A DNA stretch of 64,000 bases from Streptomyces liliiviolaceus (lineage in GTDB: Bacteria; Actinomycetota; Actinomycetes; Streptomycetales; Streptomycetaceae), in the NCBI RefSeq assembly GCF_018070025.1, contig NZ_JAGPYQ010000002.1, positions 186,001 through 250,000 on the forward strand. Direction: 5' to 3'. The translations under genes and the position numbers were made by a program. Under the pieces are notes generated by a model, which was given only the letters and a program-made list of their open reading frames with translations, searched no databases and was not told the DNA's origin. Shown one piece after another: positions 1 to 16,038 of the stretch; the first letter of the stretch is position 1; each line of letters opens with the position of its first letter.

Positions 1-2385
1 GAGGAGTACGGGAACATCCGCGCCCTGCTCGACGAGGAACTGGGCATCCAGCCGGGCGACGCCCTGCGCGAGCTGCACCAGGCCATCCTGCGCAACGAAC
101 CCTCCCTGACCGTCGCCGCCTCGCCCTCGCCGACCGCGGCCCCGGCGGTGACCGGCAGCCGCTCCACCCTGCCCTACGACCTGCGGGACTTCACCGGCCG
201 CGAGGAGGAACTGCACAAGCTGCTCGGCTTCGTGGAGGGAGCGACCGGCTCCGGCCCGCTGATCATCGCCATCGACGGCATGGGAGGCAGCGGCAAGACC
301 TCCCTCGCGGTGCGCGCCGCCCACCGTCTCACCGAGCAGTACCCCGACGCCCAGCTCCATCTCGACCTGCGCGGCTACACCCCGGGCGAGGAACCCCTCG
401 CCCCGCCCGCCGCGGCCGAGGCCCTGCTGCGCATGCTCGGCATCCCCGGCGAACGCATCCCCGACGACCCGCAGGGCCGGATCAACCTGTGGCGCTCCAC
501 CATGACCAAACACCGCATGATCCTGTTGCTTGACAACGTAGTCGACGAGGCTCAGGTGAAGCCGCTCCTCGCCTCGCCGACCGGCACGGTGGTCCTGATC
601 ACCAGCCGTGCCCTGCTCGTCGACCTCGACGCGGCGCACTCGGTCTCCCTGGGCACGATGGCGCCGCCGGACAGCGTCGCCCTGATCGTCGGCATCATCG
701 GGGAGCGCCGTGCGGAGGCCGAACCCACGGCCGTCGCCGACCTCGCCGACCTCGCCGGACACCTCCCGCTCGCCCTGCGCATCGCCGCCGCGCGACTGCG
801 CAAACGACCCCGCTGGACCGTGCGCTACCTCGTGGACCGGCTCCGCGACGACACCCACCGCCTCGCCGAACTCAGCGCCGGCGAACGCAGCGTGGAGGTC
901 ACCCTGCGGCTGTCGTACGAGGGACTGGGCGCCGACTACCGCAAGTCCTTCCGGCTCCTCGGCCAGTACCCGGGCGCCGATCTGGACGTCTACACGGCGG
1001 CGGCCCTGCTCGACCTGGGGGTCAGGGACGCCGAGGACGTCCTGGAGTACCTGCTCGACATGCACCTCGTCCAGCAGCACGAGCCGGGCCGCTACGCGTT
1101 CCACGACCTGGTGCGCAGCTTCGCCCTCATGCTGTCGCACACGCGGAGTTCCGGTGGCACCGGCGAGTTCTCGGAGGAGGCCGCGGGCGCGGTCCGGCGT
1201 CTGCTGGAGTTCTCGCTCACCGCCTCGGACGCCGCCTGCGACCTGCTCTTCCCCGGGCGGGTGCGGATGGTCCGCCCGACGCCCTCGTTCCAGCCCGAAC
1301 TGGCCCCGCTGTCCACGCCGGAGGCCGCCCGCGACTGGTTCGAGCGCGAGCAGGACAGTCTGCTCGCGGCGATCGCCCTGGCCTTCCGCCGGGGCCTGGA
1401 CCGCGAGGTCGCCCTGCTCGCGGCGAACGTCGTCTTCCACCTCGATCTGCGGGGCAGGCTCGACGACTTCCTCGCCCTGTGCCGCACCGCGCTCGCCGCG
1501 GCCCGCCGGCTGAACGAGTCCGACCTCCTGCGGTTGAGCCTGTCCAATCTGGCGGTCGCCTGCTGGAAGCGCGGCAGGTTCGAGGACGGCATAGCGGCGG
1601 CCGTCGAGGCGCATGAACTGGCGGTGGAACTGGGCGACCGGCGCGGCCAGGCCAAGGACACCGGCGTACTGGGCCTGCTGCTCGCCACCACCGGCCGCTT
1701 CGACGAGGCGCTGCCCCGGCTGGAGCAGTCGATCGCCCTCAAGCGCGAACTGGGCGCCGAGCGGGCCGAGTCGGAGTCCCTGTCGAACGTCAGCGGCGTC
1801 TACATGGAACGCGGCTGCTTCGAGGAGGCGGTGAGCGCGGCGACCCGGTCCATCGAACTCGCCCGCAAACTGGGCGCGTCGGAGAAGGAACTCGTGGGAC
1901 TGAGCGATCTCGCGCAGGTCCAGCTGGCCATGGGTGAGGTGGCGACGGCCGCCCGCACGCTGGCGGCGGCCCGCGAGCGTGCCGCCGGTGCGCTGGCTCC
2001 GGCGGACCGGGCGCTGCAGCTCGTCCTGTCCGCGGAGGCGGAGGGCCGGCTCGGGCGGCGGCAGCAGGTGCTGCCCTGGGTGGAGGAGGCGCTCGCCATC
2101 AAGGGTCTGGAGGACGCGCCCGTGCGGGAGGTCACCGTGTGGAACACCGCGGGACGGTTCTTCCACCGGGACGGCGACGACGAGCGGGCGCTGGGTCTGC
2201 ACCGGCAGGCCCACGCGTCCGCGGCCCGGCTGGGCCACCGGGTGGAGGAGGCCTACGCCCTGGACGGCATCGCCCGGGCCCTGGCGGCGCTCGGTGACGC
2301 CGAGGGGGCGGCCGAGCGGGGGGCCGCCGCCGAGGAGGCGTTCCGTGCGATGGGGATCCCGGGCCGTTTCCGCCGGGCGGACTGA
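1..2385 (+). CDS. AfsR/SARP-family transcriptional regulator, 5' end missing
   Basis: The reading frame is open from base 1, so the gene begins upstream of the window. The first ~50 codons resemble the end of a bacterial transcriptional activator domain (EELGIQPGDALRELHQ), then a linker leads to an NB-ARC type ATPase: Walker A GMGGSGKTS at about codons 93-101 and a hydrophobic Walker B MILLLDN near codon 174. The C-terminal half (from about codon 450) is rich in Ala/Leu/Glu helical repeats typical of TPRs. This is the AfsR/large-SARP layout (winged HTH-BTAD-NB-ARC-TPR); the DNA-binding domain must lie outside the window. A GTG at 148 falls inside the frame and is unlikely to be the true start. 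It converges on the DEGPN-repeat gene, with a perfect hairpin between them. It is a candidate activator of the adjacent biosynthetic operons, but that is inference. Confidence 0.9.
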   Translation, partial: EEYGNIRALLDEELGIQPGDALRELHQAILRNEPSLTVAASPSPTAAPAVTGSRSTLPYDLRDFTGREEELHKLLGFVEGATGSGPLIIAIDGMGGSGKTSLAVRAAHRLTEQYPDAQLHLDLRGYTPGEEPLAPPAAAEALLRMLGIPGERIPDDPQGRINLWRSTMTKHRMILLLDNVVDEAQVKPLLASPTGTVVLITSRALLVDLDAAHSVSLGTMAPPDSVALIVGIIGERRAEAEPTAVADLADLAGHLPLALRIAAARLRKRPRWTVRYLVDRLRDDTHRLAELSAGERSVEVTLRLSYEGLGADYRKSFRLLGQYPGADLDVYTAAALLDLGVRDAEDVLEYLLDMHLVQQHEPGRYAFHDLVRSFALMLSHTRSSGGTGEFSEEAAGAVRRLLEFSLTASDAACDLLFPGRVRMVRPTPSFQPELAPLSTPEAARDWFEREQDSLLAAIALAFRRGLDREVALLAANVVFHLDLRGRLDDFLALCRTALAAARRLNESDLLRLSLSNLAVACWKRGRFEDGIAAAVEAHELAVELGDRRGQAKDTGVLGLLLATTGRFDEALPRLEQSIALKRELGAERAESESLSNVSGVYMERGCFEEAVSAATRSIELARKLGASEKELVGLSDLAQVQLAMGEVATAARTLAAARERAAGALAPADRALQLVLSAEAEGRLGRRQQVLPWVEEALAIKGLEDAPVREVTVWNTAGRFFHRDGDDERALGLHRQAHASAARLGHRVEEAYALDGIARALAALGDAEGAAERGAAAEEAFRAMGIPGRFRRAD

Positions 2386-2407
2386 CACGCCGGCCGTGTG
2401 AAGCACG

Positions 2408-3044: not shown

Positions 3045-3200
3045 GTTGTCCGCCTTCTGTCGTCGCGATCTGCGGTGCTGACAGAAAGAAAGGTCGCGCC
3101 GGGCGCTCCCGGCCCGTTCCGGGTCCGTTACCGGCCCGTCGGGTGCGGCGGGGAAGCACCCGGGAACCCCTTCGGCGGGGCCCGCGCACGCCCACGACGA

Positions 3201-3235
3201 CCGCCCGCACGGCCTGCTTCGGGCCGTGCGGGCGG
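3201..3235 (-). terminator. Terminator hairpin downstream of the ATP-grasp gene
   Basis: Perfect 14-bp inverted repeat: arms 3201-3214 (CCGCCCGCACGGCC) and 3222-3235, 7-nt loop. It lies 51 bp after the ATP-grasp stop and ~157 bp before the DEGPN start, so the DEGPN gene probably has its own promoter in 3045-3200. Confidence 0.75.
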
Positions 3236-3285
3236 CGTACGGCCAAGGCGTACGACAGGGGTGTACGACAGCGGCGTACCGGACC

Positions 3286-4524
3286 TCAGAGGTGGTCGGG
3301 GCGCCGGCTCACCTCCGCGCGGAGCAGCCGTCCCGCCTCGGTGACCGTCCGAGCGGCCTCCTGCGTGGACTCCGCGCTCAGCAGCACATAGCCGTCCGCG
3401 CCGCCGCCCTGGCCGGGGATGTCGTCCCCGGACGCGTACGGGAAGTGGACCCGGTGCACACCGGGCAGCTCGGAGACCGATTCGAGGCCCGACACCGACA
3501 GCAGCCGCCCCACGGGCAGCCGGTAGGACGCGACGGCGGCGTACCGGTCGGCCGTCGGCACGTTCACGGGTTTCCCGGCCAGCGCCTGGACGAGTTCCGC
3601 TTCGGCGCAGAAGCCCGCCGCGAGCTCTATCAGCGAGGCGAGCGGCTCGTCCGGGTAGTCCGCCCGGGAACGCACCACGCGTGGGCCGTCGGCGGTGAGG
3701 ACGACCACGGTGTAGGCGTAGCCGAACTCGTACCCGGCGAGGTCGAGCAGCTCGGTCGCGATCGCGCGGGCCTCCGCCTCGTCCCGTTCCCCCAGGGGTG
3801 CCGGGAAGAGGTGGCTGCTCGGATGCCAGGCGCCGTGCAGGGCCACGACGCCGACGACCCGGTGCATACCGTCGACGGTGAGCGTCACGACGCCGTACTC
3901 CGGGCCCTCCAGATACCGCTCCACGAGATAGGAACGCTCACCCGCCGACTCGCTGCCACAGGCCGCGGTCCGCGCGGAGGACGGCAGCGTGCGTACGGTG
4001 ACCGGCGCGCCGATCTCCTCCACCGCGGCGGGCAGTTCCTGGGCCGTACGGGCCTGTGCGGCGGGCACGTACGAATGCCTGCTGCCGTTGAGCAGGGCCC
4101 TCATGGCCGCGGGTTCGCCCAGCAGCCGGGCCGCGTCGACCGGGTTGGGGGTCACCCCGAGCCGGGCCGCGGTCCTCGCGACCGCGGGCAGGGCTGCCGT
4201 GCCGGCGAAGGCGAGCAGCCGTTGCGTCCCGTGGACCCGGACCGAGGTGTCGATCGCCGCGGCCAGCGCGGTCTCGTCCGTGAGGTCGACGAGGTCCACC
4301 GGTGTCCCGGGGGGAATGCCGTCGTCCGGGCGGTCCGCGGTACGGGGGCACTTCGCGGGCTCCGGGGATCCCGGTGGGAGGGAGGCGTCCGCGAGCACCC
4401 GTACGGCGAAACCCGCCGCGACGGCCTCGCGGACGAGGCGGGTCGAAGGACAGAGCAGCAGCAGGCGCTGCGGAGCGCTGTCCGGGGGGTGAGGCTCTCG
4501 GTAGCGGTCGGCCGTCGCGCTCAT
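3286..4524 (-). CDS. ATP-grasp protein of L-amino-acid ligase type, with degenerate active site
   Basis: 412 aa. The ATG at 4522-4524 is preceded by GAGGAG. The fold markers are a Rossmann-like N-terminal pre-ATP-grasp region, the motif VERYLEGPEYGV in the middle, and a C-terminal region (VPTADRYAAVASYRLPVG, then the PGVHRV stretch) resembling the LAL_C2 domain of amino-acid ligases such as BacD. The family joins amino acids through an acyl-phosphate. Here key positions look lost: the DK before the MRALL helix is GE, the usual PVVVKP is PVTVRT, the following Gly-rich loop is shortened, and the ExNxR metal motif reads VRSRAD. It may be inactive, a binding partner, or a diverged ligase. It is divergent from the serine acetyltransferase operon and probably shares its control region. 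Confidence 0.75.
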   Translation of the reverse strand: MSATADRYREPHPPDSAPQRLLLLCPSTRLVREAVAAGFAVRVLADASLPPGSPEPAKCPRTADRPDDGIPPGTPVDLVDLTDETALAAAIDTSVRVHGTQRLLAFAGTAALPAVARTAARLGVTPNPVDAARLLGEPAAMRALLNGSRHSYVPAAQARTAQELPAAVEEIGAPVTVRTLPSSARTAACGSESAGERSYLVERYLEGPEYGVVTLTVDGMHRVVGVVALHGAWHPSSHLFPAPLGERDEAEARAIATELLDLAGYEFGYAYTVVVLTADGPRVVRSRADYPDEPLASLIELAAGFCAEAELVQALAGKPVNVPTADRYAAVASYRLPVGRLLSVSGLESVSELPGVHRVHFPYASGDDIPGQGGGADGYVLLSAESTQEAARTVTEAGRLLRAEVSRRPDHL

Positions 4525-4992
4525 GGCTGGCTCCTCGTCTCCTCGACGGCGGGCGGGATCCGGCGGCTGTCGCGCTCGCCCGTGTCCCGGGTGACCCGGA
4601 CAACTGGCGGCCGGGCAACTGATGGCCGGTCGGCTGAATGTTCGTACATGTGTGGATGCTTCCTTGATGCGTGAGGGCGCCGGACCGACTGTTCCGGTCG
4701 TGCCCACGCGTTTCCGCGCGGAGTGGCGCTCGACGGGAGTGTCCCTCCGGCCGTTCCCGGATCCCTCCCCGTACGTTCCCGGCCGGGCCGCCGAGCGGCT
4801 CCCGCGCACCGGTGGGCGGGGGGGGGAACGGGGCGGGAAGAGAGCGGGAACGGGGTGCGGCACGGTCTTCTCGGGACCTCGACCACCGCCGCGGCCGTCG
4901 GGCTCCCCCCTCCTCACCGGGAGCGGAACGTGCCCCCGCACACCGCCCCGGACCCGTCCACGGCCGCCCCTTCCTCACCGACTGGAGCCCCC
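4525..4992. promoter_or_regulatory. Divergent control region between ATP-grasp gene and cysE-like operon
   Basis: 468 bp without a convincing gene. It must hold the promoters for both directions. An AT-richer stretch around 4630-4665 (AATGTTCGTACATGTG) is the best local promoter/operator candidate. The stretch 4810-4860 is G-rich (run of nine G at 4819-4827). No SARP-type direct repeat could be assigned with confidence. Confidence 0.4.
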
Positions 4993-5712
4993 ATGAGCGC
5001 CACCGACAAGGAGCCAACCGACAAGGAGCCCGCCGCTGTCCTGCCCTTCCGGCGGACCGAGGCGGCCGGTACCGGGGCCGCCGGGCCGACGGCCACGCCG
5101 CCCTCCCTCCCCGGTACCGGTCCGCTGCGTCTGGCGCGGGTGATGCGGGAGGACCTGCGCGTCGTCGTCGAGCGCGACCCCTCCGTCCGCGGCCGTCTCG
5201 AAGCCGCGCTGCACCCCGCGCTGACCGCTCTGTGGACGCACCGGATCGCCCACCGGCTGCACACGGGCGGACACCGGATGACGGCACGTCTGCTGGCCCG
5301 CTGGGCCCGCCGGCTGACCGCGGTCGAGATCCATCCCGGGGCGGTACTGGGCCGCCGGGTGTTCATCGACCACGGAGCCGCGGTGGTCATCGGCGAGACG
5401 TGCACGATCGGCGACGACGTGACGATCTACCACCAGGTGACGCTCGGCGCGGTCGGCTGGTGGAGCGACAACAACAGGCCGCAGGGCGACCGCCGGCATC
5501 CGGTCGTGGGCCGCAACGTCATCCTCGGCACCAACGCGACCGTGCTCGGCCCGGTGACCGTCGGCGACGACGCGATCATCGGCGCGCAGGCCCTGGTCAA
5601 CAAGGACGTGCCGGAGGGGATGCGGATGCTGGCCGCGACCGCTTCCGGGCGCACGCCGGGCCGTCCGGCCGAGGACACCATCGCGAGCATCGCCTCGGCC
5701 GGTTCCTGGTAG
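4993..5712 (+). CDS. Serine O-acetyltransferase (CysE-like)
   Basis: 239 aa; the ATG at 4993 follows GGAG. Left-handed beta-helix hexapeptide repeats run from about residue 110 to 215, with the SAT signatures IHPGAVLGRRVFIDHG and VVIGETCTIGDDVTIYHQ. The family acetylates L-serine to O-acetylserine with acetyl-CoA. It is first in an operon with a cysteine-synthase-like enzyme, so O-acetylserine supply is the likely role. The setting (cupin, exporter, asparagine synthetase, amidohydrolase) suggests a dedicated paralog for secondary metabolism rather than the housekeeping CysE. The N-terminal ~40 residues (TDKEPTDKEP...) are low-complexity and not family-like. Confidence 0.9.
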   Translation: MSATDKEPTDKEPAAVLPFRRTEAAGTGAAGPTATPPSLPGTGPLRLARVMREDLRVVVERDPSVRGRLEAALHPALTALWTHRIAHRLHTGGHRMTARLLARWARRLTAVEIHPGAVLGRRVFIDHGAAVVIGETCTIGDDVTIYHQVTLGAVGWWSDNNRPQGDRRHPVVGRNVILGTNATVLGPVTVGDDAIIGAQALVNKDVPEGMRMLAATASGRTPGRPAEDTIASIASAGSW

Positions 5713-5884
5713 CCGCTCCCCCGCCGCCGGGCCGCTCGGCTCCGGACCTCCCGGCCCCGCGTCTCCCGGCTCCGACTCGTACGCCTTCCGCGCCACCGGT
5801 CCGCCTCCCTCCGGTCTCCCCGCCCGCAGCCCGGTGTTCCCACTCTTTCCGCCCGCAGGCCCAGATCTGACAAGGAATCACACC

Positions 5885-6862
5885 ATGCGCACCCTCGCAC
5901 CGCACACCTCCCAACCCTCCCTGGTCCGGCCCGCCGTCGCCGACGGCATCGACGACCTGGTGGGCGCCACCCCGCTGGTCCGGCTGAGGCTCGAAGGACT
6001 GGCGCCCGGCGCCGAGATACTGGCCAAGCTGGAGGCCGCCAACCCGATGTCCAGCAGCAAGGACCGGGCGGCCCTGTACATGCTCAGGGCGGCCGAGGCG
6101 CGCGGCGATCTGGCGCCGGGCGGCACGATCGTCGAGGCCACCTCGGGCAACACCGGTATCTCGCTCGCCGCCCTGGCCGCGGCCCGCGGTTACCGCTGCG
6201 TCATCGTGCTGCCCGACAACGCGACGACCGAGCGCGTGCGGCTGCTGGCGGCGCTGGGCGCCGAGGTCGTCCAGACCCCCGCCGACCGGGGCTACCCCGG
6301 AGCGATCGAGAAGGCCGAGGAGATCCACGCGTTCACCCCGGGCTCCTGGTTCCCCTGCCAGCACGAGAACACGGACAACGTCGAGGCCCACTACGCCACC
6401 ACCGGCCCCGAGATCACCGCCGCGCTCACGGCGACCGGCCGCCGCGTCGACACGCTCGTCTGCGCGGTGGGCACCGGCGGAACCCTCACCGGGATCGCCC
6501 GTCATCTGCGGGAGTACGACTCCGCGGTACGGATCGTCGCGGTCGAGCCGCAGGGGTCCCCGCTGCTGTCGGGCGGACAGGCCGGACGGCACCGCATCCC
6601 CGGCCTCAACGGCGGTTTCATCGCCCCGACGACCGACGTCTCCCTGATCGACGAGGTGATCGCCGTCAGCGACGCCGACGCGCTGCACACCGCCCGCCGG
6701 CTCGCCGCCGGGCAGGGCCTGTTCGTCGGTGTCTCCTCCGGCGCCGCCGTGCACGCCGCGCAGTCGGTGGCCGCCCGCCCCGAGTACCGGGACAAGACCG
6801 TCGTCACCGTGCTGCCGGACACCGGCGAGCGGTACCTGAGCATGTGGGAGGACCCGTCATGA
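5885..6862 (+). CDS. Cysteine-synthase-like PLP enzyme (O-acetylserine beta-substitution)
   Basis: 325 aa; the ATG at 5885 follows AAGGA. Fold type II PLP enzyme: the Schiff-base lysine lies in SSSKDRAA, the substrate loop is EATSGNTGIS, the phosphate-binding loop is GTGGTLTG and the C-terminal PLP ring contact is PDTGERYLS. CysK/CysM enzymes eliminate acetate from O-acetylserine and add a nucleophile to the aminoacrylate. Because its partner is a pathway SAT and no sulfur-supply gene is nearby, the nucleophile could be something other than sulfide, giving a beta-substituted alanine. It is coupled to the next gene by an ATGA overlap. A 172-bp gap separates it from the SAT gene. Confidence 0.9.
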   Translation: MRTLAPHTSQPSLVRPAVADGIDDLVGATPLVRLRLEGLAPGAEILAKLEAANPMSSSKDRAALYMLRAAEARGDLAPGGTIVEATSGNTGISLAALAAARGYRCVIVLPDNATTERVRLLAALGAEVVQTPADRGYPGAIEKAEEIHAFTPGSWFPCQHENTDNVEAHYATTGPEITAALTATGRRVDTLVCAVGTGGTLTGIARHLREYDSAVRIVAVEPQGSPLLSGGQAGRHRIPGLNGGFIAPTTDVSLIDEVIAVSDADALHTARRLAAGQGLFVGVSSGAAVHAAQSVAARPEYRDKTVVTVLPDTGERYLSMWEDPS

Positions 6863-7326
6863 CGCTGCTGGTCTCGACCCTGAAGAGGTTCGGCGACGCC
6901 GTCAAGGTCCGTATCGGGGAGACCACCACCACCCGGTACATCGCGCTCGCCGAGACCACCGACGGCCGCCTCGGCCTCTTCCACCACCACATGCTGCCGG
7001 GCGCCGCCGGAGCGGCCCCGCACTACCACACCCGGATCTCCGAGTCGTTCTACGTGATCTCGGGAGAGGTCACCGTCCATGACGGCACGGGCTGGCACAA
7101 GGCCCATGCCGGCGACTTCCTCCACGTGCCCGAGCACGCCGTGCACGGCTTCCGCAACGACAGCGACGCACCGGCGGAGATGCTGATCATCTTCACCCCG
7201 GCGGAGAACCGCGAGGCCTACTTCACCGGCCTGGCGGAGCTGTTGGCCGACGGGAACACCCCGTCGCGGGCCGAGATGGTCGCGCTCATGGAGAAGTACG
7301 ACCAGTTCGAGATCGACGAGCCCTGA
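6859..7326 (+). CDS. Single-domain cupin protein
   Basis: 155 aa, overlapping the previous stop by ATGA, with a GGGAGG site. Both cupin motifs are present: PHYHTRISESFYVISGEV (HxH and Glu metal ligands) and GDFLHVPEHAVHGFRN (third His). This is a mononuclear-metal beta-barrel. Its chemistry cannot be read from sequence; cupins in such operons act as isomerases, oxygenases or lyases. Translational coupling to the cysteine-synthase-like gene suggests it acts on the same intermediate. Confidence 0.85.
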   Translation: MTLLVSTLKRFGDAVKVRIGETTTTRYIALAETTDGRLGLFHHHMLPGAAGAAPHYHTRISESFYVISGEVTVHDGTGWHKAHAGDFLHVPEHAVHGFRNDSDAPAEMLIIFTPAENREAYFTGLAELLADGNTPSRAEMVALMEKYDQFEIDEP

Positions 7327-7398
7327 CCGTCACGCGCACTGCCGTCACCCGTACTCACGCGTTCCCCCGTCCGTTCGACAACTCTCAGGAGTCATCAC

Positions 7399-8427
7399 AT
7401 GCATCCCGTCAACTGGGCCCGCTTCGGCCTGCTCGCCGCCCTGTGGGGGTGCAGCTTCGCCTTCATCAAGGTGTCGCTGGACGCCTTCGCCCCGCTCCAA
7501 CTCGCCTTCGGGCGGCTGCTCGTGGGCGCCCTCGTCGTCGGCCTGATCCTCGCCGTGACCAAGGGCTCCTTCCCCGACCGCGCGGTCTGGGGACACATCG
7601 CCGTCGCCTCGGTGTTCGGCAACGTCGTGCCGTTCACCCTCTTCGCCGTCGGCGAGCAGCACACCACCGCGACCATCGCGGGTGTCATCCAGGGCGCCAC
7701 ACCGCTGGTCACGCTCGGTCTCGCCGCCGCGGCCATCCGCACGGAGAAGCCCACGGCCCGCAAGGTGACCGGTCTCGTGATCGGCTTCGTCGGGCTGGTC
7801 GTCGTGGTCGGACCGTGGCGCACCGACGGATTCGGGTCCATCGGCGGCCAACTCGCCTGTGTCGGGGCGGCGGTCAGTTACGCGATCAGCTTCGTCTACC
7901 TCCGCCGGTTCGTCTCCCCGTACAAGATCCCGGCGCTCGCCGTGACCGCCGCGCAGCTCACCTCCGCGATGGTCATCACCGGTCTGATCACCACCTTTAG
8001 CATCGGCTGGGACCTGCCGGGCGAGCTGACGGCCGGCCCGCTGCTGTCCCTCCTGGTCCTCGGCGGCGCCTCCACCGGTATCGCCTTCGTCCTGATGAAC
8101 CGGCTCATCGCGGACGCGGGACCGACCACGGCCTCCGGCGTCAACTACCTGGTCCCGGTGTTCTCCGTGATCGTCGGCGCGGCGGCCCTCGGCGAGTCCG
8201 TCACCTGGAACGTGCCGGTGGGCGGCGCGGTGGTCATCGCGGCGCTGGCTCTCGCGGAGGGGCGGCTGCCGCTGCCCGCTTCACGGCGCACGGCCGAGCC
8301 GCCGGCCGCCGCCGCTCCGGTCCCGCCCGTTCCCGACCCGGCCGAGCCGACCCGGCCGACCGACCAGGTCGACCGGGCCGACCGCACCGACCGGGCCCAG
8401 CCCGCGGTCGCCCAAGAGGCCTGCTGA
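7399..8427 (+). CDS. EamA/DMT-superfamily transporter, likely exporter
   Basis: 342 aa with two EamA repeats (about residues 5-140 and 150-290) and ten predicted hydrophobic helices. It starts LLAALWGCSFAFIKVSLD, typical of the family. The last ~50 residues are a Pro/Ala/Asp/Arg-rich cytosolic tail with TDQVDRADRTDRAQ-like repeats. DMT proteins commonly export amino acids and metabolites. As last gene of the SAT operon (72 bp after the cupin, followed by a strong terminator) it probably exports the product or gives self-resistance. Confidence 0.88.
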   Translation: MHPVNWARFGLLAALWGCSFAFIKVSLDAFAPLQLAFGRLLVGALVVGLILAVTKGSFPDRAVWGHIAVASVFGNVVPFTLFAVGEQHTTATIAGVIQGATPLVTLGLAAAAIRTEKPTARKVTGLVIGFVGLVVVVGPWRTDGFGSIGGQLACVGAAVSYAISFVYLRRFVSPYKIPALAVTAAQLTSAMVITGLITTFSIGWDLPGELTAGPLLSLLVLGGASTGIAFVLMNRLIADAGPTTASGVNYLVPVFSVIVGAAALGESVTWNVPVGGAVVIAALALAEGRLPLPASRRTAEPPAAAAPVPPVPDPAEPTRPTDQVDRADRTDRAQPAVAQEAC

Positions 8428-8490
8428 CCGGACCTGTTCGGGCCCGCCCGGACCCGTTTGCGGCCTCTCCAGGCAACTCCGCACAGCAGC

Positions 8491-8535
8491 ACGCCGCACG
8501 GCGCGCCCCCTGCTCAGGGGCGCGCCGTGCGGCGT
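8491..8535 (+). terminator. Strong terminator after the exporter gene
   Basis: Perfect 19-bp inverted repeat, arms 8491-8509 and 8517-8535 (left arm ACGCCGCACGGCGCGCCCC), 7-nt loop, 64 bp after the exporter stop. It separates the two biosynthetic operons. Confidence 0.9.
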
Positions 8536-8945
8536 TCGCGTGTGGCCGGCTGCTCGATGCCAGCTGCCCGCTGCCCGCTGCCCGCGTGTCCCCACCCCGA
8601 GGGCCGGCGCCCGGGTTCGTGGGGCGAGCCGCGCCGTTCCCCACACCCCTCAAGGCAAACGATCGCGCCGTTCCCCGCGCCCCTTACGGGGCGCACCCCC
8701 CGGTTCCCGCGCCCGCTCCGTGCGCCGGGAGCGACGCGGGACACGACCGGGAACCCGCCGCGCGAACCTGCAGGAGGAAGAGAAAAGGAGCCACAGCAGC
8801 CCCTCCGGACTCTGTGGCCCCACCCACTCACCTCTCCCGTGTCTCTCGTCCCTCTCATCTCTCCCGTCCCACCTCCGATTCCCCCACCGCACCAGCGGGC
8901 CGACGCCACCGCACCGGCCTTCGTACACAGGAAGCAGCCACCGGA
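8536..8945. other. Noncoding gap with dispersed Streptomyces element, promoter of second operon
   Basis: No gene is supported here. Bases 8631-8690 hold two tandem versions of GCGCCGTTCCCC-C-CCCCT, the reverse complement of elements seen at 27,791 and 29,977. The promoter for the bicupin operon should lie in 8700-8930. A purine-rich stretch GGAGGAAGAG at about 8771-8781 is followed by no start codon in the correct frame. Confidence 0.5.
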
Positions 8946-9782
8946 ATGCCCCCATCCACCGCACCCGCACCCACTCCGGCCACCGCCCTCGGTGACGCCC
9001 GCATCATCACCGCGGCCGAGTTCGATTTCCGCCCCGTCGCCGGCGCCGAATCCGGCGCCCGCACCACGGTCGCCACCCCCGTCAGCCCGGCCGCGGGCGC
9101 CACCCATGTCACCCTCCACGTCGTGCGGATAGCCGCCGGCGAGTCGTACTCCCCCGAGCGCAGCACGGCCGAGGAGAACACCGTCGTGGTCTTCTCGGGG
9201 ACGGGCACCGCGGCCGTCGGCGATCTCACCGCACCCGTCGAGCGCGGATCCGCCGCCTACGCCCCCACCGGCCGCGCCCTCACCCTCACCGCGGACGACA
9301 GGGGTCTGACCGCCTACGTGTGGCGGACCCCGCTCGCGGACGCCCCCGTCGGGAGCGAGCCGGTCCTGCACTCCTCCCTGTGGGACGAGACCACCCAGCT
9401 GCGCGGCTTCGGCGGCACCGGACAGGTCGACGCGGCAGAGCGCCGCGCCACCATGAACTTCGTCTTCTGGCCCGGCAACGGCAGCAGCCGGCTGTGTCTG
9501 CACTGCGGCATCCAGCAGCCCGGCGAGACCTTCAACGTCCATCTCCACCCCGACAGCGACGAGGCGTTCATCGCCTTCGAGGGCGTCGGCCAGATGTATC
9601 TGCGCGACCGCTGGATCGACGTGAGCGCGGGTGACGTCCTGTACGCCTCGCCCGGAGTGCTGCACGGCGCCCGCAACCCGCACACAGGTCCCACCGCCCG
9701 CCGCTTCGTGACCTGCGGCGGGCCCAGCCCCTTCGACCCGGCGCTCTACTCCGCCGCCGGCTACTCCTCACAGGTCAGGTGA
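8946..9782 (+). CDS. Bicupin protein
   Basis: 278 aa from the ATG at 8946; AGGAAG lies 11 bases upstream. The frame is open further upstream, but composition and the ribosome site favour this start. Two cupin-like halves are visible. The N-terminal one (residues 30-125) lacks clear metal histidines. The C-terminal one has FNVHLHPDSDEAFIAFEGVGQ (HxH...E) and GDVLYASPGVLHGARN (His), so one metal site is predicted. It opens the second operon, 7 bp before the asparagine synthetase. Bicupins such as BacB act in dipeptide antibiotic pathways, but similarity is at fold level only. Confidence 0.8.
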   Translation: MPPSTAPAPTPATALGDARIITAAEFDFRPVAGAESGARTTVATPVSPAAGATHVTLHVVRIAAGESYSPERSTAEENTVVVFSGTGTAAVGDLTAPVERGSAAYAPTGRALTLTADDRGLTAYVWRTPLADAPVGSEPVLHSSLWDETTQLRGFGGTGQVDAAERRATMNFVFWPGNGSSRLCLHCGIQQPGETFNVHLHPDSDEAFIAFEGVGQMYLRDRWIDVSAGDVLYASPGVLHGARNPHTGPTARRFVTCGGPSPFDPALYSAAGYSSQVR

Positions 9783-9789
9783 ACGCAGC

Positions 9790-11652
9790 GTGTGCCGCAT
9801 ATACGGAACCTTCAACGTCCATTCCGACGAGGCCGAACTGCGCCGCGTCGCCGACCTGATGCACCACGGCGGTCCCGACGCCCAGGGTGTCGCGCACCGG
9901 CCCGACTGGGCCCTGGGCAACAACCGTCTGTCGATCATGGACCCCGAGGGGGGCGCCCAGCCCTACCACCTCGGCCGGGTCACCGTGGTCTTCAACGGTG
10001 AGATCTACAACCACGGCGAGCTGCGTTCGCGTCTGGCCGGCCTCGGCTTCCACTTCGACGACCTGTGCGACGGCTCGATCCTGCCCGCGCTGTACATCAC
10101 CTACGGGGACCGGTTCGCCGAGCACCTGGACGGCATGTACTCGGTGGCGGTCATGGACCTGCGGGAGACCCCCCGCATGGTGCTGGCCACCGACGACTCG
10201 GGCATGAAGCCGCTCTACTACCACTGGGACCGTGCCGCCGGCCGCTTCCACTTCGCCTCCGAACTGCCCGCGCTGCTGGGCTTCGCCGGGGTGAAGGCCG
10301 AGGAGGACGAGGCAGGTCTCGACGCCTACCTCACCTCCAAGACGCCGTTCGGCAACCGCACCATGTTCCGCGGGGTGGAGGTGTTCCCGCCGGCCGCCAC
10401 CGTCCTCCTCAGCCACCGGGACGGACTGCGGATCAAGCAGCGCCCGATGGCCCACGAGCGGGGACTGCGCCCCGACAAGGACCGCACCCTCGCCGAGGCG
10501 GGCGACCAGCTGCGCGACCTGCTGTCCAGGGAGGTGTCGCGGCTCCTGATCGCGGACGCCCCCGTCGCCGCGGTCACCTCCGGCGGGCTCGACTCCAGCC
10601 TCGTCACCGCGCTCGCCGCACAGGCGCTGCGGGACGGCGGCGGCACCGGCAGCCTGCACACCTTCAACATCGCCTACACCGGCACCTGGCCCAGCGACGA
10701 ACGCGCCTACGCCGCCGAGGTCGCCCGCGCCGCGGGCACCACCCACCACCAGGTCGAGGTCGATCCGGCCACCTTCCCGGACCTCATGACCGACGTCGTC
10801 CGCCATCTGGGGCAGCCCAACGCCGACCCCATCACCCTGTCCACCTTCTCCCTCTTCCGTGCGGTCCGCGACGCCGGCTTCAAGGTCGCCCTCACCGGCG
10901 ACGCGGCCGACGAACTGTTCAGCGGCTACTCCCGGATGACCCAGGCGGTCGCCGCACACCACGGTTCGAGCTGGATCGACGGCTACCTCGACCATCTCGC
11001 CGCCGTCCCGCGGGCCCTGCGCGAGAGCCTGTACACCGACGAGTACGCCTTCGCCGTGAACGCGGTCGGTCCCGCCCTGCCGCCCGGCATCCGGCGGATC
11101 CTGCACAGCAGCCCCGGCACCCGGCTGCAGCGCATCGGCGCGGTGGAGCAGCGCTACCGGCTCCCCGCCTACCACCTGCGGCGCGTCGACCATCTGTCGA
11201 TGGCGAGCTCGGTGGAGGTGCGGCTGCCGTTCACCCAGCCGTCGGTCGTGCGCTTCGCCTCCACCCTCACCGACGAGCAGCGGCTCGTACCGGGTCTGGG
11301 GGTGAAGCGGGCCCTGTACCAGGCCGCGCAGGGGCTGATCCCGCGCAGTGTGCTGGAACGGCCCAAGCAGCCCTTCACCCTCCCGGTCACCGCGATGCTC
11401 ACGCCCGGCCAGCGGCTGTGGACCCTCGCCCGTGACGTCCTGTCGCCCCACACCCTGCGCGCCGACGGCCGGATCCGCCCCGAGCGGGTCGACGCCCTCT
11501 TCGACGAGCAGGCCACCCGCCCCAGCGACGCCGTCTCCCTGGCCCTGTGGTCCCTGATGTCGCACCAGCTGTGGCGCCAGGAGTTCTTCGCCACGGCCAA
11601 GGCCCCGGTCACGCTCCACACCCCGGTACGAGTCCTCCAGGAGGCGGCGTGA
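9790..11652 (+). CDS. asnB: Glutamine-hydrolysing asparagine synthetase, class B
   Basis: 620 aa from a GTG at 9790. After removal of Met the nucleophile Cys2 is exposed (MCRIYGTF). Glutaminase motifs: LMHHGGPDAQG, NNRLSIMD, FNGEIYNH. The synthetase domain has the PP-loop SGGLDSS near residue 264 and LTGDAADELFSGY. The enzyme activates a carboxylate with ATP and transfers ammonia from Gln. A stand-alone AsnB inside a biosynthetic operon usually amidates a pathway acid or forms an amide or lactam. The stop overlaps the next gene's GTG (GTGA), so expression is coupled. Confidence 0.93.
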   Translation: MCRIYGTFNVHSDEAELRRVADLMHHGGPDAQGVAHRPDWALGNNRLSIMDPEGGAQPYHLGRVTVVFNGEIYNHGELRSRLAGLGFHFDDLCDGSILPALYITYGDRFAEHLDGMYSVAVMDLRETPRMVLATDDSGMKPLYYHWDRAAGRFHFASELPALLGFAGVKAEEDEAGLDAYLTSKTPFGNRTMFRGVEVFPPAATVLLSHRDGLRIKQRPMAHERGLRPDKDRTLAEAGDQLRDLLSREVSRLLIADAPVAAVTSGGLDSSLVTALAAQALRDGGGTGSLHTFNIAYTGTWPSDERAYAAEVARAAGTTHHQVEVDPATFPDLMTDVVRHLGQPNADPITLSTFSLFRAVRDAGFKVALTGDAADELFSGYSRMTQAVAAHHGSSWIDGYLDHLAAVPRALRESLYTDEYAFAVNAVGPALPPGIRRILHSSPGTRLQRIGAVEQRYRLPAYHLRRVDHLSMASSVEVRLPFTQPSVVRFASTLTDEQRLVPGLGVKRALYQAAQGLIPRSVLERPKQPFTLPVTAMLTPGQRLWTLARDVLSPHTLRADGRIRPERVDALFDEQATRPSDAVSLALWSLMSHQLWRQEFFATAKAPVTLHTPVRVLQEAA

Positions 11653-12683
11653 CTGTCAGCCTCGCCCGTGCGCACGGCACCCCCTGCCCCACCGCCGTGA
11701 TGGACGCGCGCACCCTGCCCGACTCGGAACCCGAACTCCTCGCCCGGCTCTCCGAGTTACGGTCGGCACTGGCCGACCAGGGAGCCTCGGACGTCCTGAA
11801 GAACGCCCTCGTGCAGCCCTCCCGGCATCCCCTGTTCGACCTGGACTACCGCTTCGTCCAGTCGATGCCGGACAGTTTCGACAGCTTCGACCTGCGCGGC
11901 TCCTGCGGCCACTCCATCCTGGCGGCGGTCGAGGCGGCGGCCCGTACCGGCATGATCCAGCCCCTCGTGGCCGGCTGCCGGGTCCGGGTCAACGTCCTCA
12001 ACAACGGCGACAACGTGGTGTGCGAGGCGGAGGAGACCGACGACGGGGGCACCCGTTTCACGGCCCACTTCCTCTGCTCGCCGCCACGGCCGGTGAACGA
12101 CCTCCTGATCACCGGCGAACCCGTCACCGGCATCCCCTTCGAGGGGCGTACGGTTCCGGTCTCGCTGGTCTCCATGGGCAATCCGTATCTCTTCGTGCAC
12201 GCCGCCGAACTCGGCGCCCACACGGTCGAGGACCTCTTCGCCGACGACCTCGTGCTCTTCGACCGGATGACCAGGCTGCGCCTGGCGGTCTGCCGGACGC
12301 TGGGCTGGGACACCACCGGCGCCTTCCCCAAGGTGGCCGCGCTGCTCCCGGACGGTCCGGGCGCCCTCGCGGTGCGCGCCATCTCCGTACCGTCCTGGCA
12401 TCCGACGGTGGCGCTCACCGGGGCCACCTGCCTCGCGGCGGGTGCCGCCGTGGAGGGCACGATCCCCTACCTGCTGTCCGGTGTCTCGGACCAGCCGGAC
12501 AGCGATCTGCTCTCCCTGCGCACACCGGGCGCCACGGTCCGCGCCTCGGCCCGTATCGCGGGCGGCCCCGGCGACCGCCGGCTCGCCTGGATCTCCGTCG
12601 CGGAGAAGCAGGTCGACTACGCCGGCCTCTTCCTGCCCGCCCCCACCTCCGAGGAGTTGTCATGGCTTCCGCTGACAGCCTGA
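11649..12683 (+). CDS. PrpF/4-oxalomesaconate tautomerase-family isomerase, contains TTA codon
   Basis: 344 aa from GTG 11649. It resembles the diaminopimelate-epimerase-fold PrpF family: DLRGSCGHSILAAVEAAA corresponds to the GNCGN..AAVG cysteine motif, and VSLVSMGNPYLFV to the second half-site, although the second catalytic Cys position reads Met-Gly-Asn-Pro. PrpF-type enzymes move double bonds in unsaturated di- or tricarboxylates. Here it may isomerise a conjugated acid made in the pathway. Codon 37 (11757-11759) is TTA, read by the bldA tRNA, which ties expression to development. It overlaps the next gene by 22 bp. Confidence 0.7.
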   Translation: MTVSLARAHGTPCPTAVMDARTLPDSEPELLARLSELRSALADQGASDVLKNALVQPSRHPLFDLDYRFVQSMPDSFDSFDLRGSCGHSILAAVEAAARTGMIQPLVAGCRVRVNVLNNGDNVVCEAEETDDGGTRFTAHFLCSPPRPVNDLLITGEPVTGIPFEGRTVPVSLVSMGNPYLFVHAAELGAHTVEDLFADDLVLFDRMTRLRLAVCRTLGWDTTGAFPKVAALLPDGPGALAVRAISVPSWHPTVALTGATCLAAGAAVEGTIPYLLSGVSDQPDSDLLSLRTPGATVRASARIAGGPGDRRLAWISVAEKQVDYAGLFLPAPTSEELSWLPLTA

Positions 12684-13891
12684 CCGTGCCCGAAGCCCGG
12701 ACACTGACCGGGACCGACGTGCCGCTTCCCGCACCGGCCGACGACCTGCCCGCAGGACCGTCCACCGGTCCGTCCGCCGGACCGTCCACGGGTCTGACCG
12801 AGGCGATGCGTGAGCGTCTCGCGGCCGCCGCCCGCGACGCCGACGCGAGCGGCGAACCCGACCGGCCCGCGCTGGCCCTGCTCCGCGAGACCGGACTGCT
12901 CGGACTGGCACTGCCGTACGAGTACGGCGGCACCGGAGCCGACGCGCACGGCCTCAACTCGGCGGTCGCACAGGTGGCGCAGGTCAACGCCTCCGCCTCG
13001 ATCATGCTGTTCCAGCACTACGCGGTCAGCAGGCGCATCCTCGAACACGGCAGCCCGGCCCTGCGGCGCCGGCTGCTGCCCCAACTCGCCCGCGGCGACT
13101 GGCTCGCCGCCTCCGCCTGGAGCGAGACGGGGGCGGGCGCCAACAAGAAGCAGCTGTCCACCGTCGCCCGCCGCACGCCCGACGGGGGCTGGGTCCTGGA
13201 CGGCGCCAAGTCCTTCACCACCAGCGCGGGGCTCGCCGACATCTACCTGGTGCTGGCGCAGACCGAGGAGCCCGAGCCGGACGCCGCTCCGGACACCGGC
13301 TACGGCTCCGCCGGCCAGACGTTCTTCCTGATACCGGCGGACACACCGGGTCTGGAACCCGACACCTCGATGCGGCTGACCGGCATGCGCGGTTCGGCGA
13401 CCGGTTTCGTCTCCGTGCACGACTGCCACGTGCCCGACACCGCCCGGCTCGGCCCGGTCGGCGCCGCCGCCTCGATCATCGCCGGGGTCCGCGACAGCGG
13501 CGCCACGCTCGGCGCCGTGTCCGTCGGCCTGGCCGAGGCTGCCCTCGAACTCGCCCACCGGCACGCCGAGAAGCGCGGGCTGCTGGCCCAACAGGCCGTC
13601 CGGCACCGGCTGGTGGACATCGCGGGCGAGGTCGAGACCGCCCGTGCGGTCGTCGAACGGGCCGGCCGTCGGACCGCCGACGACCCGGGGATCGCCACGC
13701 TCCACTCCAAGCTCGTCGCCTCCTCGGCGGCCGAGCGCGTCATCAACGCCGTCGAGCGGCTGCTGGGCTCGGCCGGCTATGTCGCCTCGAACGAGATCAA
13801 CCGCTACGGCCGCGACGCCCGTGCCGTCGCCCTGATGGGACCGACCAACGACCTCTGCAAGGAACTGGTGAGTCTGACGTGGAACCGCTGA
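12662..13891 (+). CDS. Acyl-CoA-dehydrogenase-fold flavin monooxygenase candidate
   Basis: 409 aa; the ATG at 12662 follows GAGGAG and lies inside the PrpF-like gene. Fold features are normal for acyl-CoA dehydrogenases: YEYGGTGAD, SAWSETGAGANKK (FAD loop), the C-terminal helical bundle and ERLLGSAGY. The catalytic-base position is changed: the usual YEGT reads MGPT, with Gly393 where Glu is expected. This, with a flavin reductase two genes downstream, fits the two-component N- or C-hydroxylases of this superfamily (isobutylamine N-hydroxylase type) better than a true dehydrogenase. The first ~40 residues are a Pro/Ala/Thr-rich extension. Confidence 0.8.
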   Translation: MASADSLTVPEARTLTGTDVPLPAPADDLPAGPSTGPSAGPSTGLTEAMRERLAAAARDADASGEPDRPALALLRETGLLGLALPYEYGGTGADAHGLNSAVAQVAQVNASASIMLFQHYAVSRRILEHGSPALRRRLLPQLARGDWLAASAWSETGAGANKKQLSTVARRTPDGGWVLDGAKSFTTSAGLADIYLVLAQTEEPEPDAAPDTGYGSAGQTFFLIPADTPGLEPDTSMRLTGMRGSATGFVSVHDCHVPDTARLGPVGAAASIIAGVRDSGATLGAVSVGLAEAALELAHRHAEKRGLLAQQAVRHRLVDIAGEVETARAVVERAGRRTADDPGIATLHSKLVASSAAERVINAVERLLGSAGYVASNEINRYGRDARAVALMGPTNDLCKELVSLTWNR

Positions 13892-15318
13892 AGCCCCGAT
13901 CCGCAGACCTCTCTCCCGGCACCGCTCCTTCCCCTCCCGTCGGCCCGCCCGCCGATCTGATCGTCGAAGGGGGCCGCCTCGTCACCCCGGACGGCGTCCG
14001 CGACGGAACGGTTCTCGTCCGGGACGGCCGGGTCGCGGCCCTGCTCGCGCCGGGCGAGCCGCTGCCGCCGGGACCGCGCCTCGACGCCCATGGCCGTTAC
14101 GTGCTGCCGGGCCTGATCGACTCCCACGTCCACTTCCGCACACCCGGTCTGGAGTACAAGGAGGACTGGGAGCACGGCAGCCGGGCCGCCCTCGTCGGCG
14201 GTGTGACGACCGTGATGGACATGCCCAACACCCGTCCGCCGTCCCTGGACGAGAGCAGCATGCTCGCCAAGGCCGCGGTGATCCAGGGCACTTCATGGAT
14301 CGACTACCGCTTCCACATGGGCGCCGACCCCGACCATCCCGAGCTGCTGGCGGAGCTGGACCCGCGGATAGCGAGTTCGGCGAAGGTGTTCATGGCAGGA
14401 CATCACACGGCCCCCGTCGTGTTCCGCGACGGCGAGCAGCTGCGACGGGCCTTCGCCGCCGCCGCCCGCGGGGGTGTCCGGCTCGTCCTGCACGCCGAGG
14501 ACCAGCACGTCTTCGACCTGCTCGACGCGAGTTCGGGCGCCCCGGACACGTACGGCGGGTACGAGCCGCACCGGCCGCGGTCCGGTGGGATCGTCGCGGT
14601 CGCCCATGTCGTGCGGCTGGTGCGCGAGTACGGCACGAAGACGCACATCCTGCATGTGTCGTCGGCGGAGGAGGCCGATCTGCTGTCGGCGGCGGCCTCC
14701 GAAGGGCTGCCGCTCACCTACGAGGTGACGGGCCATCACCTCTCGTTCACCCACGACGACACCACCCGGCGCGGTCCGCGGACCCGGCTCTCCCCCGCCA
14801 TCCGCGAGTGCCGTGACCAGAAGCGGCTGTGGCAGGCCGTGCTGCGCGGCGAGGTCGCCACCCTGGGCAGCGACCACGCTCCGCACACCGTGGAGGAGAA
14901 GAACCGTCCACCGGCCGACGCGCCGCCCGGCCTGCCCGGCGTCCAGGAGCTGGCCACGGCCGTCTGGACCGGCCTGCGGACCCGGGACATCGCCCCGGAC
15001 GAGGCGGCCTCGCACCTGGCCCGGCTCATGGGAGAGGGACCCGCCCGGCTCTTCGACCTGGTCGGCAAGGGCCGGCTCGAAGCCGGCGCGGACGCGGACC
15101 TGACCCTGCTCAACCCGTCCGACCGCTGGCAGTTCTCCGCGCACGACGTACAGGCGCTGTGCGGCTGGTCCGCGTACGAGGGCTGGACCTTCACCGGACG
15201 CTTCACGACCACGGTGAAGGGCGGCCATGTCGTCTGGGACATCCGGGACGGGTTCTCCGGGCGCCCCGAGGGCCGCTGGCTGCAGGGCTCGGCACGGCCT
15301 CTGGAGGTGGCCCGATGA
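13879..15318 (+). CDS. Dihydroorotase/hydantoinase-type amidohydrolase
   Basis: 479 aa from GTG 13879, overlapping the previous gene by 13 bp. It has the full binuclear-metal set of class I cyclic amidohydrolases: H83 and H85 in SHVHFRTPG, carbamylated-Lys candidate K169 in SSAKVFM, HAED, HVSSAEE and D332 in GSDHAPH. Such enzymes open or close cyclic ureides and imides (dihydroorotate, allantoin, hydantoin). No pyrimidine or purine-degradation genes accompany it, so I infer ring closure or opening of a pathway heterocycle. It ends in an ATGA overlap with the flavin reductase. Confidence 0.9.
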   Translation: MEPLKPRSADLSPGTAPSPPVGPPADLIVEGGRLVTPDGVRDGTVLVRDGRVAALLAPGEPLPPGPRLDAHGRYVLPGLIDSHVHFRTPGLEYKEDWEHGSRAALVGGVTTVMDMPNTRPPSLDESSMLAKAAVIQGTSWIDYRFHMGADPDHPELLAELDPRIASSAKVFMAGHHTAPVVFRDGEQLRRAFAAAARGGVRLVLHAEDQHVFDLLDASSGAPDTYGGYEPHRPRSGGIVAVAHVVRLVREYGTKTHILHVSSAEEADLLSAAASEGLPLTYEVTGHHLSFTHDDTTRRGPRTRLSPAIRECRDQKRLWQAVLRGEVATLGSDHAPHTVEEKNRPPADAPPGLPGVQELATAVWTGLRTRDIAPDEAASHLARLMGEGPARLFDLVGKGRLEAGADADLTLLNPSDRWQFSAHDVQALCGWSAYEGWTFTGRFTTTVKGGHVVWDIRDGFSGRPEGRWLQGSARPLEVAR

Positions 15319-15899
15319 GTTCGACACTGCTCGAATCCCAACTGCCCGCATCCCAGTCCCCGCCCGGCACGTCCTCGTCCGGCACGTCCTCGTCCACGAC
15401 GCCCGCCCAGCCGGTCCAGGACCTCGCCGACGCCTTCCGCGCCGCGATGTCCGCCCTGGCCGCCCCCGTCACCCTCGTCACCTGCTACGACGACCTGGGC
15501 AGGCCGCGCGGTCTGACGGCCAGCGCCGTCAGCTCGCTGTCCCTCACCCCGCCGCTGTTCCTCGTCTGCCTCGACCGCAACTCCCGTACGCACGACACGC
15601 TGACGGGCGCCGAGGAGTTCGCCGTGCACCTCCTGGGACCGGGCGAGGAACATCTCGTCAAACGGTTCATGCGGCCGGCCGAGCACCGCTTCGACGGCGT
15701 GCCCCTGGCCGCGGACTCCCACCGGGCCCCCGTCATCCGGGACGCCTCCCTCACGCTCCACTGTGTCCGCCACGACGTCCTGGAAGGAGGCGACCACACG
15801 ATCCTCGTAGGACGGGTGACCGCTGTGCGCGGTGAGCCCACGCACTCGGGCGGCCTGCTCTGGCACCGACGGGGCTTCGCCCACGCGCGACGCCCATGA
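15315..15899 (+). CDS. Flavin reductase (HpaC/NTAB-like), monooxygenase partner
   Basis: 194 aa; ATG at 15315 in an ATGA overlap. The first ~35 residues are Ser/Thr/Pro-rich. The flavin-reductase-like domain follows: AFRAAMSALAAPVTLVT, GLTASAVSSLSLTPP, the FAVHLL strand and a C-terminal LLWHRRGF. The family reduces FMN or FAD with NAD(P)H for a separate monooxygenase. The only flavin-dependent oxygenase candidate nearby is the acyl-CoA-dehydrogenase-fold protein in this operon. Confidence 0.9.
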   Translation: MSSTLLESQLPASQSPPGTSSSGTSSSTTPAQPVQDLADAFRAAMSALAAPVTLVTCYDDLGRPRGLTASAVSSLSLTPPLFLVCLDRNSRTHDTLTGAEEFAVHLLGPGEEHLVKRFMRPAEHRFDGVPLAADSHRAPVIRDASLTLHCVRHDVLEGGDHTILVGRVTAVRGEPTHSGGLLWHRRGFAHARRP

Positions 15900-15946
15900 C
15901 CCGGACGGGGGCTGCCACCGCGACGCGGCCGGCAGCCCCGTCCGGG
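15900..15946 (+). terminator. Terminator after flavin reductase
   Basis: Starts directly after the stop: left arm 15900-15916 and right arm 15931-15946 (GGCAGCCCCGTCCGGG), pairing over 16 bp with one bulged G. It ends the second biosynthetic operon. Confidence 0.8.
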
Positions 15947-16038
15947 ATCCGGCACGCCGGCACCTAGGCGCGCAGGACGGCACATGAAGAGGGCCCACAA
16001 AAAAAGAGGGAAGACAGATCGTCGTCGCCGTGCCTACC

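Follow-up and report, generated by a model that had tools for sequence, protein, structure and literature searches.

A Co-Conserved AsnB/PrpF/Dihydroorotase-like Gene Cassette of Streptomyces liliiviolaceus with Probably Exchangeable Coupling Enzymes

Introduction

The described systems closest to the gene cluster considered here, which occupies positions 3286-15899 of a 64,000-nucleotide stretch of Streptomyces liliiviolaceus DNA (the window; C2:186001-250000 of a GC-rich, 11.1 Mb genome), are the D-cycloserine cluster (dcs), the YeiN/AlnA-type C-nucleoside clusters (showdomycin, minimycin, and alnumycin), the karnamicin cluster (knm), and, for a single enzyme, the dihydroorotase PyrC. Dihydroorotase closes an amide onto a carboxylate, with a substrate clamp holding a second carboxylate. 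According to a section of PMC8724604, the ring of showdomycin has been proposed to originate from glutamine via a cyclase and nonribosomal peptide synthetase (NRPS) proteins, and a section of PMC9838390 lists an asparagine synthase, an acyl-CoA-dehydrogenase-type protein, and an amidohydrolase for knm. Among the papers listed in searches of open-licence literature, none was seen to describe the gene set, and the cluster could not be matched to a described one.

The original prediction had read this region as a locus for a metabolite of the β-substituted alanine type, and the enzyme classes that it named are encoded there (Pfam, NCBIfam). The eleven genes of the cluster specify an ATP-grasp protein, serine acetyltransferase (SAT), a CysK-like enzyme, cupin cup1, an EamA-type transporter, bicupin cup2, AsnB, PrpF, an acyl-CoA-dehydrogenase-fold flavoprotein (AcDH), a dihydroorotase-like enzyme (DHO), and a flavin reductase. 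Comparison with related loci makes it quite probable that they form a dedicated pathway whose coupling enzymes can be exchanged.

A Co-Conserved Set with a Four-Gene Core

Genes were called from third-position GC content and inspection of starts, combined with Pfam and NCBIfam scans. The run from cup2 to the flavin reductase is single and tight, with gaps of 7, -4, -22, -13, and -4 bases; CysK and cup1 overlap likewise (a gap of -4 bases). To find related loci, a profile made from an alignment of 28 PrpF proteins was scanned against genomes of named species, which gave 104 loci with a PrpF relative. The best 80 of the 104 were kept, and 20 stretches from further genomes of the window's order were added (the 19 lowest-ranked matches of the order sample and one more), at least four of which duplicate loci of the species collection (L133, L138, L142, and L143). 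All 100 loci were drawn by PrpF; the counts describe the gene company, not frequency. Contigs end within the cluster in L005, L015, and L019.

The full window set is present in 18 of the 100 loci, and a four-gene core of AsnB, PrpF, AcDH, and DHO is complete in 85 (the core loci). AsnB accompanies PrpF in 98 loci, and DHO joins them in 93. Thus, the gene set is real and co-conserved, beyond chance proximity, which answers the objection that these might be paralogs from primary metabolism brought together without co-conservation. As a single unit, the predicted set stands in so far as it is co-conserved; its four-gene core extends beyond the O-acetylserine genes, in whose place some related loci have a C-glycosynthase and a phosphatase.

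Eight loci were counted as having DHO without AcDH. A relocated AcDH relative is carried by L063, L079, L081, L082, and the duplicates L142 and L143, but not by L039 and L135; in the first four of these, AsnB, PrpF, and DHO are also accompanied by a TglH/MbnB-type enzyme and a nitroreductase. Of 391 genomes sampled from the order to which the window belongs, its own among them, 48 carry the PrpF marker at E <= 1e-60; although the sample covers ten genera, all 48 are from the genus of the window. It is also present in other actinobacterial genera of the named species collection. The nearest named relatives of the PrpF from the window are those of Streptomyces dioscori and S. tauricus.

Two Kinds of Couplers beside One Core

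SAT together with a window-type CysK occurs in 31 of the 85 core loci, among them L041, whose CysK is only 29% identical, and another CysK (CysK1) occurs in 26. In eight core loci (seven without the duplicate L138), an AlnA/PsuG-type C-glycosynthase and a HAD phosphatase are encoded beside the core, and none of the 85 combines PsuG with either CysK. The PsuG-type gene of L070 matches Indigoidine_A at 4e-112 and is followed by a HAD hydrolase. In L024, PsuG has AlnA as its best PDB match (300 bits, versus 280 for E. coli PsuG) and stands with the core, cup2, a flavin reductase, an EamA-like exporter, a degenerate ATP-grasp protein, and a HAD phosphatase; no SAT-CysK pair was found at this locus. 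The lysine of the CAGAKS stretch, which we take to be catalytic in PsuG, is kept in seven of the eight copies. Gene content, conservation, retained and lost residues, and the couplers beside the core are all direct observations.

Cyclic amidohydrolases and PsuG homologues are often degradative, and a catabolic or detoxifying cluster opening a cyclic imide or a pyrimidine-like compound might therefore be considered. However, a degradative set would not be expected to contain AsnB, SAT, CysK, and an EamA-type transporter; in L070, the PsuG gene precedes a HAD hydrolase gene, and PsuG of L024 is closest to the anabolic AlnA; a catabolic function is very improbable.

A quick tree was built from joined AsnB and PrpF (93 rows). 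The window's clade comprises 24 rows with a support of 100, from which L024 is the first to branch off (support 87 for the other 23), followed by L022, where no coupler was found, and then by 22 rows that are of the SAT-CysK type or come from truncated contigs. Placing PsuG versus CysK on this tree requires at least three changes. We infer that the coupling is probably interchangeable, with one ring joined either to alanine or to ribose. The bicupin cup2 (46 of the 85 core loci) and an FAD monooxygenase, FMO6 (37 of 85), also exclude each other, both being present in none and neither in two. This exclusion was not taken as repeated replacement, because one change on the tree suffices for it.

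Enzymes of the Core and the Cupins

DHO carries the residues expected of a dihydroorotase, namely HxH, the carboxylated Lys, two His, Asp, and the Arg/Asn/His carboxylate clamp, and in 79 of 79 rows the ten checked positions hold the same residues (His, His, Arg, Asn, Lys, His, His, Asp, His, and His). The clamp roles of R, N, and H are presumed from dihydroorotase structures. Among the host paralogues, whose names rest on motifs and not on context, the PyrC-like L094 has R, N, and H in the clamp, whereas in the allantoinase-like L092 R is replaced by N and H by S, and the hydantoinase-like L093 has none of the three. Of the dihydroorotase/hydantoinase type initially assigned to this enzyme, only the former half is retained: judged by its substrate clamp, the amidohydrolase appears dihydroorotase-like and not hydantoinase- or allantoinase-like.

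A full dihydroorotase clamp would also suit the synthesis of a true pyrimidine ring, in which the substrate of DHO is N-carbamoyl-aspartate or a closely similar ureido compound and CysK produces a uracil- or orotate-type alanine resembling willardiine. However, the Pfam/NCBIfam scans of the eleven genes revealed neither a carbamoyltransferase nor a dihydroorotate dehydrogenase, the host already possesses the PyrC-like L094, and AsnB and PrpF would be left without a role. Such a route is distinctly unlikely.

PrpF-fold enzymes shift or flip double bonds of polycarboxylates. The PrpF protein of the cluster has the PrpF domain with the conserved Lys and Cys; K51, C86, H88, and C261 are present in 81 of 81 rows, and in the PDB the profile matches 3-methylitaconate isomerase, YbhH, oxalomesaconate isomerase, and methylaconitate isomerases. 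Cys2 of AsnB is found in 79 of 80 rows, the remaining row being a gap.

The fold of AcDH is that of acyl-CoA dehydrogenases (ACAD) according to Pfam, the alignment, and a structural model, and the catalytic Glu of the YEG position is replaced by Gly (MGP versus YEG) in 79 of 79 rows. Some ACAD members have their base elsewhere, so AcDH may still be a dehydrogenase. The fold itself was set aside as an arbiter between oxygenase and dehydrogenase, since the model is nearest to ordinary acyl-CoA dehydrogenases. Because Gly replaces the catalytic Glu and a flavin reductase of either type accompanies the core in 58 of the 85 core loci, the flavoprotein is likely an oxygenase. Amidation, probable oxygenation, and ring closure, as originally suggested, are supported as the predicted chemistry of the set.

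In cup1, the ligands His/His/Glu/His are kept in 24 of 24 rows, and in cup2, the metal ligands and an invariant Cys-x-His-Cys are kept in 41 of 41. Against a ureidoglycine-aminohydrolase model, the cupins score 23.5 and 26.8 bits (cut-off 200); allantoin-type chemistry, which these weak matches might evoke, was rejected in view of the dihydroorotase-like clamp of DHO.

O-Acetylserine Supply, CysK, and the ATP-Grasp Protein

SAT scores 173.3 bits with cysE, below the curated 210.65, and passes the EpsC-type SAT model when scanned as the longer open reading frame 4723-5712 (Table 1). It terminates with Trp in the window and in 30 of 36 locus copies, mostly as ASAGSW, and the canonical Ile tail of the cysteine synthase complex is absent. 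In canonical SAT, the C-terminal Ile docks in CysK; here, a dedicated docking tail seems plausible. Its link to CysK is not strict, since CysK is still nearby in four of the six exceptions (L032, L035, L040, L041, L053, and L062). A search of the host genome with the cluster SAT revealed no second full-length SAT (partial matches reach 34 bits), and in a tree that included six CysK paralogues of the host, these six fall outside the clade that unites the CysK of the window with 21 of the 43 listed locus copies. Both results agree with the initial idea that the cluster has its own O-acetylserine supply. The SAT and CysK-fold pair is present with its signature residues; the use of O-acetylserine by the pair is predicted from sequence.

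The pyridoxal phosphate (PLP) Lys of CysK is present in 45 of 45 rows. The protein retains the cysteine-synthase signature, passes the cysKM model (Table 1), and falls just short of cysK (344.7 versus 350.95); its nearest PDB relatives are real cysteine synthases (up to 283 bits), with 211 bits for O-ureido-L-serine synthase 3x43. These scores would be compatible with a SAT-CysK pair that makes extra cysteine, the ring (an acceptor of the maleimide or pyridinedione type) then being joined via sulfur to yield an S-linked cysteine conjugate. The same explanation would gain from those AsnB+PrpF+DHO relatives that stand with a TglH/MbnB-type enzyme, as this family acts on cysteine in 3-thia-amino-acid pathways. 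However, ten further CysK-like matches of varying strength in the host (best 46%) already serve cysteine synthesis, and no CysK was found in the eight PsuG-type core loci, which leaves an S-linked conjugate unlikely, though deserving some weight.

The ATP-grasp gene lies on the minus strand within the open reading frame 3286-4941, and its start is most likely at 4524 (ATG, with GGAG upstream). Pfam matched the LAL_C2 domain alone and not the ATP-grasp domain itself, and the model has an L-amino-acid-ligase fold. None of the ten rows compared, from window-type loci and L024, has the loop lysine, and the metal-binding acid, kept in L009, is missing from the window protein; the roles of both residues are presumed. 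The protein looks degenerate, so a working ATP-grasp ligase as a member of the set is not supported, and a dipeptide or amide ligase was rejected for this reason. Two adjoining ATP-grasp genes are present in L022, L043, L044, L046, L056, and L058, one product being 52-59% identical to the intact-looking L041 protein and the other diverged (30-34%).

SAT, CysK, a DapF/PrpF-fold racemase, an ATP-grasp cyclase, and an exporter could together make an isoxazolidinone-type amino acid similar to D-cycloserine, and the enzyme classes do overlap in part with the dcs genes, including the match of CysK to 3x43. However, CysK scores higher with cysteine synthases, the ATP-grasp protein looks degenerate, and AsnB, AcDH, and DHO have no known place in cycloserine synthesis. 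A cycloserine-like product is scarcely credible.

A Proposed Route to a β-Heterocyclyl-Alanine

For the dedicated pathway with exchangeable couplers, we infer the substrates, the order of the steps, the ring, and the product as follows: aconitate would be converted via an amide and a citrazinate-like cyclic imide to a β-heterocyclyl-L-alanine. The PrpF-fold isomerase would act on an unsaturated polycarboxylate, for which we propose aconitate, and set its double bond; AsnB would turn one carboxylate into an amide with nitrogen from glutamine; and the DHO-like enzyme would close this amide onto a carboxylate, giving a six-membered cyclic imide with one carboxylate left. The proposed imide is citrazinate (2,6-dioxo-pyridine-4-carboxylate), in which CH replaces N1 of orotate. 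AcDH, supplied by the flavin reductase, might oxidise the imide, and the cupins might modify the ring further. SAT would provide O-acetylserine, CysK would form its aminoacrylate and couple it to the ring, and the EamA transporter would export the product. Where related loci combine this cassette with a phosphatase and a C-glycosynthase of the AlnA/PsuG type, a C-nucleoside would result.

Aconitate monoamide differs from carbamoyl-aspartate in having CH for NH and a double bond, and its closure would give citrazinate; the carboxylated imide obtained from it would be isosteric with dihydroorotate. The aconitate scheme, a proposal drawn from general chemistry, is the smallest found that uses all four core proteins. 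The chances that the cluster is dedicated to a polar amino acid of the β-heterocyclyl-alanine kind are about even. A citrazinate-type ring is a tentative assignment, open to considerable doubt. Just as speculative is the wider idea of a portable AsnB/PrpF/AcDH/DHO cassette that starts from an acid of the citric acid cycle and, following a logic like that of pyrimidine synthesis, builds an orotate analogue with carbon in place of nitrogen, and into which actinobacteria plug either CysK, to obtain an amino acid, or an AlnA-type enzyme, to obtain a C-nucleoside, both products acting as pyrimidine antimetabolites.

Several points weigh against this interpretation, in addition to the cysteine-synthase character of CysK described above. 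In 27 of the 85 core loci, neither CysK nor PsuG is present in the fetched flanks, so that other couplers exist or the genes are farther off. The CAGAKS lysine is changed to Glu in PsuG of L136, which has decayed or contains a sequencing error; the closely related L137 keeps the lysine. Since no Lys occupies the carboxylated-lysine column of L094, the latter is an imperfect reference for the clamp. When the 100 loci were searched with the two aconitases and four citrate synthases of the host, first as longest frames and then with the matched stretches in both orientations (E <= 1e-5), neither enzyme was found; aconitate would therefore have to come from primary metabolism. The distant loci L145-L148 have AsnB and PrpF without DHO, and in L055 and L144 no AsnB was recognised beside PrpF, so these genes must have another use as well. 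Finally, sequence cannot name the ring or the type of bond.

By eye, AsnB and PrpF in L145, L146, and L148 lie near MshA-type glycosyltransferase-like and Fur regulator-like genes, with a MetRS-like protein nearby in L145 and L148 and an LmbE-type deacetylase in L146 and L148; L147 shows the markers only. In these loci, the pair possibly belongs to another pathway.

If the proposed route is true, it represents a new way to a pyridinedione-type ring that needs no assembly line, and the swapping of two genes provides a natural test of amino acid/sugar exchange on one ring. Given the occurrence of the marker in the window's genus and in other actinobacterial genera, a whole family of polar metabolites may lack known genes.

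Boundaries and Neighbouring Genes

The coordinates of the genes are collected in Table 1. A homologue of the NB-ARC/TPR regulator at the left edge of the window is found at the edge of most window-type loci, so this regulator is probably a member of the cluster. The right end is probably at 15899, since four genes tested beyond it have matches in L003 and L004 only, among L001-L082. An Rfam search of 2300-16300 gave no match at E <= 0.5.

Adjoining the cluster, at 2508-3044 on the minus strand, a secreted-looking protein with ten DEGPN-type motifs is encoded; it is present in L003-L008 with 7-13 motifs and, at a threshold of at least three motifs, in no other locus up to L082. Farther to the right, at 42665-62426 on the plus strand, two large type I modular polyketide synthase (PKS) genes apparently form a separate cluster (the first 1000 residues of the first gene were scanned).

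Table 1. Genes of the cluster and the adjacent regulator, in window coordinates.
Feature	Position	Strand	Evidence
NB-ARC/TPR regulator, part only	148..2385	+	Pfam; 1071-aa open frame starts upstream of the window (L099:5170)
Degenerate-looking ATP-grasp protein with L-amino-acid-ligase type C-terminal domain; divergent from SAT	3286..4524	-	LAL_C2 1.9e-9; model nearest L-amino acid ligase 3vot, TM 0.68
Serine O-acetyltransferase (SAT), C-terminal tail ASAGSW	4993..5712	+	EpsC-type SAT NF041874 160.6 bits, cut-off 150
CysK-like β-replacement enzyme (PLP), proposed coupler	5885..6862	+	PALP 2.7e-74; TIGR01136 cysKM 348.1 vs 344.15
Cupin 1 (cup1), single domain, metal ligands intact	6859..7326	+	Cupin_2 3.2e-18
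EamA/DMT transporter, probable exporter	7399..8427	+	EamA 2e-36
Bicupin cup2 (two-domain)	8946..9782	+	Cupin_2 3.8e-18; metal ligands of C-terminal domain intact
AsnB-type glutamine-dependent amidotransferase (core)	9790..11652	+	TIGR01536 325.6 over 267.1
PrpF-fold isomerase (core)	11649..12683	+	PF04303 5.2e-15
AcDH, acyl-CoA-dehydrogenase-fold flavoprotein without the usual catalytic Glu (core)	12662..13891	+	Pfam; MGP vs YEG; model
DHO, dihydroorotase-like cyclic amidohydrolase/cyclase (core)	13879..15318	+	Pfam, NCBIfam; metal ligands and clamp
Flavin reductase	15315..15899	+	PF01613 1.2e-36

Comparison with Known Systems

With the dcs cluster, the window has in common the predicted on-site synthesis of O-acetylserine and its use by a CysK-fold enzyme, as well as a DapF/PrpF-fold protein, an ATP-grasp protein, and a DMT-type exporter. 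However, dcs is not known to contain AsnB, a dihydroorotase-like enzyme, or an AcDH-fold flavoprotein, the ATP-grasp protein of the window looks degenerate, and its CysK scores cysteine synthases above DcsD (3x43). DcsA and DcsB are presumably hydroxyarginine- and hydroxyurea-forming enzymes, and neither a heme-oxygenase-like nor an arginase family was recognised among the eleven genes (Pfam/NCBIfam).

The YeiN/AlnA-type C-nucleoside clusters share with eight of the 85 core loci a PsuG/AlnA-type C-glycosynthase and a phosphatase, which there stand beside the core; among the eleven genes of the window itself, Pfam detected neither a PsuG C-glycosynthase nor a phosphatase gene. The four-gene core contains no NRPS, unlike the showdomycin system, and a showdomycin-type maleimide route was rejected in view of the origin proposed for that ring in the cited section of PMC8724604. 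The three enzyme classes quoted above for karnamicin are shared with the window; the same section of PMC9838390 places NRPS and PKS-NRPS proteins in knm and names no SAT, CysK, or PrpF.

DHO and PyrC are alike in their metal ligands and in the Arg/Asn/His substrate clamp. At the same time, among the matches listed (25 of 49 families), the enzyme of the window remains below the cut-offs of the dihydroorotase models and is 31% identical to the PyrC-like L094 of its host, and, unlike PyrC, enzymes of its kind stand beside AsnB and PrpF in 93 of the 100 loci.

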